Notes under the pieces: generated by a model
What the model saw: the letters and a program-made list of their open reading frames with translations, nothing else
What the model was told of the DNA's origin: nothing
Database searches by the model: none
Part shown: positions 55,882 to 56,840 of the stretch, in pieces
Position numbering within the stretch: position 1 is the first letter of the stretch
How the letters are laid out: each line of letters begins with the position of its first letter
DNA from: Alphaproteobacteria bacterium
Lineage (GTDB): Bacteria; Pseudomonadota; Alphaproteobacteria; ATCC43930; CGMCC-115725
Assembly (NCBI GenBank): GCA_030041335.1
Contig: JASHOB010000215.1
Location: 62,001 to 126,000 of the forward strand
Direction of reading: 5' to 3'
DNA length: 64,000 bases
Made by a program: the position numbers and the translations under genes

Positions 55882-56403
55882 TCACTTCTTGCGGAACGCG
55901 TCCAGCGCGACCACTTCACCCGGTTTGCTGGTGGCTTGGGCGTCTCGCTTGCCGACGGTCTTCGCCAGCGCAAGATCGGGCTGCTTTTCCACCGACTTGG
56001 GCTTGGTGTTGGTTCCCGGCTTCGCCGCAGCCGTCGTATCGGCGGCGGCATCGGCGGCCGGAAATTGCAGGCCGAATTTCACCGAAGGATCGGCAAAGGC
56101 GGCGATCGCGGCGAAGGGAATGGTGATGCGCTCGGGGCGGTTATTGAAGCTCAGGGTCACCTCGAACGCTTGTTCGCGTACCTCGAGATCCCAAAATTGG
56201 TGCTCGAGGACGATGGTCATTTCAACCGGATATTTCTGCGCGAGATGGGCGGCGAGGCAAACACCCGGCGCCCGCGTCTTGAAGGTGATGTAAAAGTGAT
56301 GTGCCCCGGGAAGCCCGCTTGCCGCAGTCCGCGCCAGCGCCTCGCGCACCACGCCCCGCATGGCGCATTCAACCATCTGATCGTATCGCAACAGATCCTT
56401 CAC
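55882..56403 (-). CDS. sspB: SspB-family ClpXP adaptor
   Basis: 173 residues from GTG 56403 (the frame is open to 56466). The domain reads LLRYDQMVECAMRGVVREAL, HHFYITFKTRAPGV and EMTIVLEHQFWDLEV, then FAAIAAFADPSVKFGLQF. This is the SspB fold. A Lys/Ala/Thr-rich linker leads to the C-terminal EVVALDAFRKK, which matches the ClpX-docking XB tail. SspB carries ssrA-tagged proteins to ClpXP. It lies directly downstream of the ssrA RNA gene on the same strand. Confidence 0.92.
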   Translation of the reverse strand: MKDLLRYDQMVECAMRGVVREALARTAASGLPGAHHFYITFKTRAPGVCLAAHLAQKYPVEMTIVLEHQFWDLEVREQAFEVTLSFNNRPERITIPFAAIAAFADPSVKFGLQFPAADAAADTTAAAKPGTNTKPKSVEKQPDLALAKTVGKRDAQATSKPGEVVALDAFRKK

Positions 56404-56520
56404 AGCACGTCCGGCTTCCCACCGATTGTTTTCACCATTATTGCCGCCAACTTCTGCGGTTGGCAATGGAATGGAGGGCTTCTGTTGCCCGGTGCCCTCC
56501 GAACCGCGCTAAGAGTTAAG

Positions 56521-56740
56521 CCCTAATCCCGCAAGGGACGTTAGGCCGCAACTGCCTCAGCAGGAGCGAAGTTGTCGTTCGCACCTAAGGTTTGACCCGA
56601 TAACGGTGGTATCATGCCGGGCGAAAGTCGCATCTTTACCACGCGCGTCGATCCTGTTTCGCCCCCGCAAGATGGTGGAGGCGCCGGGTACTGCCCCCGG
56701 GTCCGCAACGCTTATGCCATGCGCGGTTTATCGCCATAGT
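56521..56740 (-). ncRNA. ssrA: transfer-messenger RNA, circularly permuted two-piece type
   Basis: On the minus strand an acceptor piece comes first. It has T-stem CCGGG/CCCGG around a 7-base loop, then CGCCTCC-A-CCA ending at 56673. A 6-base spacer follows. The coding piece starts with GGGGGCG at 56666, then AAACAGGATCGACG. The two 7-mers pair, with a G-U wobble at position 3-70, the alanine identity element. The tag frame 56582-56541 encodes ANDNFAPAEAVAA and a stop. It is closed by a hairpin (TCCC-TTGC-GGGA). Outer ends are approximate. tmRNA rescues stalled ribosomes and marks products for ClpXP. Confidence 0.95.
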
Positions 56741-56840
56741 CGGTTGCCCGACGCACCAAATATAAGACATTTGCAGGTAACCGCAATCCCGGCGCGAGTC
56801 GCCCTTTGAGCGCGCGCGACTCTTGTCTAAAGTTCGGGCC

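Follow-up and report, generated by a model that had tools for sequence, protein, structure and literature searches.

Two-piece tmRNA was reportedly first shown in Caulobacter, by Keiler et al. in 2000. As described in PMC1168896, the structural model of the Caulobacter RNA consists of chains of 213 and 83 residues with relatively small pseudoknots and a T-loop carrying a changed base; its helix 11, formed by residues 1-18 of chain B, corresponds to the absent pseudoknot pk4. For the alphaproteobacterium Orientia, a further report gives a precursor and two pieces detected by Northern blot, supported by RNA-seq coverage (PMC7335160), and for Sinorhizobium detection of the tag peptide by mass spectrometry was reported (PMC10117765). 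One recent collection holds 11,946 unique permuted sequences, and the same paper states that the general permuted model, RF04321, omits the protruding ends (PMC11915505). Circularly permuted tRNA genes likewise carry two halves in reversed order with an intervening stretch, but permuted tRNAs are re-ligated whereas permuted tmRNAs are not, according to PMC3978253.

Here we analyzed a window of 64,000 nucleotides, the whole stretch of alphaproteobacterial DNA under study, in which an earlier note had placed a two-piece ssrA gene on the minus strand. The alpha_tmRNA model of Rfam (RF01849) matched the minus strand with 252.8 bits (E 2.7e-72), against a gathering cut-off of 50 bits, and all of its positions were covered (1-355 of 355). 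At E <= 0.001, this was the single match in the draft assembly, which comprises 5.17 Mb on 262 contigs. The same gene was matched by the tmRNA_permuted model (RF04321) with 154.9 bits (E 7.7e-31), with which it shares the tRNA-like domain and the permuted order, and no difference was found. ARAGORN called a 'tmRNA*', the star of which we take to indicate the permuted form, at 56767-56450, and returned the tag that had been read in the earlier note, ANDNFAPAEAVAA. The earlier note had named both the alpha_tmRNA search and ARAGORN as checks, and the lack of an alpha_tmRNA match as a reason to give up the gene; both searches recovered it, which together with the second Rfam model confirms the assignment.

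The permuted gene spans 56764-56470 on the minus strand. The interval first proposed, 56521-56740, lies within it and is too short, missing both ends. On one side the coding piece continues to about 56473-56470; on the other, the interval stops short of the acceptor piece's 5' terminus and of a -10-like box that reaches 56764. Full-length match, order of the pieces, type of tag, UAUAUU box and terminal GGCAACAGAA motif are all shared with the alpha_tmRNA family. The minimum free energy of 56740-56541 was not below that of shuffled sequences (z 0.31), and the centroid fold of this segment contains the acceptor and T stems; judged from sequence, the evidence for a tmRNA gene is homology and not folding energy. 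A smpB gene is present elsewhere in the genome (PF01668, 181.6 bits). We estimate at about 97% the probability that the locus is the ssrA gene of this genome, in the circularly permuted two-piece form of Alphaproteobacteria, and that it works as proposed below. What we observe is the sequence itself, its homology, the covariation of stems, the adjacency of sspB and the presence of smpB.

All features of the gene lie on the minus strand, in the order acceptor piece, spacer, coding piece, which direct reading, Rfam and ARAGORN all gave. Upstream, the -10-like box TATATT (56759..56764) aligns with UAUAUU, a conserved element in the consensus of the Rfam model. A TATAWT word was found upstream in 138 of 254 genes of the class survey described below, one of the 255 being left out and no control being printed for this count. 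The promoter scan did not report the TATATT box as a promoter, and the one terminator-like match, at 56786-56771, lies upstream of ssrA (0.8 expected from shuffled sequence). Close to the 5' terminus of the acceptor piece, the Rfam structure line gives a hairpin, GUCGG-GCAA-CCGAC (56739..56752), which probably represents helix 11 of the RNA modeled for Caulobacter. The acceptor piece occupies 56673..56755; its 3' CCA at 56673 was placed by direct reading and by Rfam, and its 5' end would lie near 56755, as estimated from the 83-residue Caulobacter chain. Within it, direct reading and comparison with the class identify the T arm (CCGGG, loop GGCAGTA, CCCGG; 56684..56700), followed by the 3' strand of the acceptor stem, CGCCTCC (56677..56683; U70 is position 56679), by A73 (56676) and by the CCA ending at 56673. 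The spacer, TCTTGC, is 6 nt long (56667..56672) and is presumably removed on maturation.

The coding piece (56473..56666; direct reading, Rfam and ARAGORN) starts with GGGGGCG (56666-56660), and the two acceptor 7-mers pair at 7 of 7 positions with G3-U70 kept. The CCA end, the 6-base spacer, the coding start and this pairing can thus all be read directly in the sequence, as the earlier note had stated. We place the 3' terminus of this piece at 56473, the Rfam match ending at 56470 and that of ARAGORN at 56450; this position is probable rather than exact. The tag frame called by ARAGORN (GCG...TAA, 56541..56582) encodes ANDNFAPAEAVAA, which ends in a hydrophobic residue and AA and is followed directly by the TAA stop.

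Toward its 3' terminus, and outside the interval first proposed, the coding piece contains an H-type pseudoknot (56473..56506), recognized from an inverted repeat (I7) and from covariation of the second of its two stems. The first stem pairs CGGT (56506-56503) with ACCG (56493-56490), and the second GGAGGGC (56500-56494) with GCCCTCC (56479-56473). The pseudoknot is formed around the terminal motif GGCAACAGAA of the alpha_tmRNA consensus, which is present here, and it is absent from the structure line of the model. We do not claim that it is new. A scan with free placement proved too permissive, since it found the pseudoknot in 241 of 252 genes but still, on average, in 195 of 252 once the 3' strands had been shuffled. 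The second stem was therefore tested in fixed columns, on 235 distinct sequences with 500 shuffles (from the 255 survey genes, 3 without motif were left out, then 2 of 252 that were unusable and 15 duplicates among 250). Standard pairs were present in 200 to 230 of the 235 sequences per column pair, and all six column pairs exceeded the maximum of the 500 shuffles; for pairs 4 and 5, 230 of 235 sequences had a standard pair, versus shuffle maxima of 187 and 184. Since the sequences are related, such shuffles overstate covariation, and we argue for real pairing because several types of pair (GC, CG, AT, TA) occur per column. For the first stem, 4 of 4 pairs were found in 218 of 235 sequences, a count that takes the most favorable of five offsets and has no control beside it.

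How ordinary this gene is was assessed on 289 genomes drawn from Alphaproteobacteria, this one included. The alpha_tmRNA cut-off was passed by 263 of them, this genome among them; 3 more had a match below cut-off and 23 had none, several of these being incomplete assemblies. One genome had a second match above the cut-off (G096:C5:288509-288849, 72.8 bits) beside its main gene. The 263 ssrA genes were fetched and 255 could be parsed, 8 being unparsable. Since a gene was parsed only with 5 or more of the 7 acceptor pairs present, and pairing raised its score, full pairing in 255 of 255 genes is partly built in, which does not hold for the kinds of pairs. These show compensating changes, at pair 5 (GC 214, AT 27, CG 12, TA 1, GT 1) as at pair 6 (CG 196, TA 56, TG 3), while G3-U70 and A73 are invariant in all 255 parsed genes. 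A T-loop GGCAGTA or GGCGGTA was found in 218 of the 255. The loop of this locus, which had been called atypical, is therefore that of most of the class, GGCRGTA being the norm. CCA is encoded in 245 of the 255 parsed genes and not in the other 10, and a simple tag pattern gave no tag in 43 of the 255.

Some genes of the survey depart from this picture. At the acceptor end of, for example, L010, L011, L039, L055, L068 and L086, CCC or CCT stands in place of a fully encoded CCA, so that CCA would need to be completed after trimming. In the tmRNA of L134 (151-480), from another genus of the taxonomic family to which the present organism belongs, the tag and terminal motif are typical but the tRNA-like domain diverges, with TGCGATA as T-loop and GGGGCCG in the acceptor; it scores only 187.6 bits against alpha_tmRNA, and its tRNA-like domain may have been changed or exchanged. 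TGCGA also occurs in the T-loop region of L286 and L287, of that same taxonomic family. The alpha_tmRNA matches of L206 and L089 span 907 and 778 bases, and in L089 a spacer of 444 nt was parsed.

The feature in which this gene differs from its family is the spacer, which has 6 nt here, whereas the class median for genes that encode CCA is 31 nt. Spacers were counted in the 245 genes that encode CCA, the excluded 10 of 255 comprising 3 that are possibly mis-parsed (next bases GTT, ATT, TTT). Parsed lengths ranged from 2 to 575 nt, the longest not being checked singly. The length found here is uncommon but not unique: 19 of the 245 genes, this one included, have a spacer of 6 nt or less, and they are spread over 15 families; 63 of 245 have 16 nt or less. 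Three genomes of the same genus have spacers of 5, 5 and 9 nt, and other members of the family up to 41, which suggests that spacer length changes quickly. Spacers of 20-110 nt number 168, and 109 of these reach a z below -2 in folding energy (mean z over the set -2.51), relative to a base-shuffled control that keeps composition but not dinucleotides, and with no inspection of single folds. A spacer of only 2-6 nt has no room for a hairpin.

Could so short a spacer signal a decayed or non-functional tmRNA copy? It does lie far below the median, but spacers of similar length recur in the three same-genus genomes, the tag and the stems are intact, and the model match is full-length and the only one in the assembly. 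We rejected this explanation, which appears highly improbable. The plus strand raises another question, since it carries a 67-codon frame antisense to the tmRNA gene (56606..56809, from the ORF list) that might be a real small protein overlapping the RNA gene. In its favor, an antisense VEAPG string is found at the same place in 168 of the 255 parsed genes, and in 122 of those 168 the stretch around it runs for 50 codons or more without a stop (the count did not ask for a start codon, and the ends of the fetched loci may truncate some stretches). This recurrence is however attributable to the conserved RNA that lies beneath, namely the 3' strand of the acceptor stem and the T arm, and the frame has no match in Pfam or NCBIfam. 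A real protein is thus almost certainly the wrong reading; the better interpretation is a shadow frame cast by the RNA, in agreement with the earlier note, which had judged it spurious.

Directly downstream of ssrA and on the same strand, the next gene is sspB (55882..56403, minus strand), encoding the ClpXP adaptor for tagged proteins, as identified from its translation and by PF04386 (151.6 bits, cut-off 27). Its start is probably a GTG, the ORF list beginning instead at a TTG at 56466. SspB did not reach the NCBIfam equivalog NF008762 for the ClpXP specificity-enhancing factor (13 versus 202 bits). Between the two genes, one promoter-like match was found on the minus strand (56437-56466: TTGCCA, 18, AATAAT; 0.1 expected from shuffled sequence), possibly the promoter of sspB. 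The pair is flanked by thyX, which is divergent (PF02511, 56823-57797), and by a fumarase gene (PF05681/PF05683, 54221-55834). Across the survey, 253 of 289 genomes have an SspB match, and 246 have both genes, from which 32 with the genes on different contigs were left out, leaving 214. In 174 of the 214, this genome included, the SspB match shares the strand of the ssrA match and starts 36-471 nt downstream of it, at a median distance of 103 nt. A further 28 have it on that strand too, downstream by no more than 10 kb, and in the remaining 12 it is more distant, lies upstream or is on the opposite strand. The adjacency is not stated in the consulted portions of PMC8119881, PMC3985003 and PMC2584231, and we claim no novelty for it.

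By analogy with related organisms and from general knowledge, the following working of the locus can be proposed. The acceptor piece, the 6-nt spacer and the coding piece would be transcribed in that order, and the transcript would fold such that the coding piece pairs through its 5' end with the 3' end of the acceptor piece. Cutting at the spacer would then give two RNAs held by base pairs. With 6 nt only, one RNase P cut before 56666 may separate the pieces, and the six bases behind CCA would be trimmed by exonucleases; the same route, a single cut before G1 followed by trimming, could serve other short-spacer genes. The complex would be charged with alanine via G3-U70 and, with SmpB, would enter stalled ribosomes and add A-ANDNFAPAEAVAA, after which SspB, encoded next door, would pass the tagged proteins to ClpXP.

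More tentatively, permuted tmRNA genes might follow two processing designs, with repeated switching between them, even within families, and with the present gene an example of the minimal one. Very short spacers, from 2 to perhaps 16 nt, would be dealt with by one RNase P cut in a tight loop containing the CCA and then by exonuclease trimming, whereas long, structured spacers would need a second endonuclease. We regard this scheme, taken as a whole, as a speculation with the odds somewhat against it.

The ssrA gene described here is real but ordinary, and adds one orthologue to a well-described family. At the level of the class, the gene for the tag and the gene for the adaptor of that tag are neighbors in most alphaproteobacterial genomes that have both on one contig, and spacers down to 2 nt limit the ways in which a two-piece RNA can be matured.
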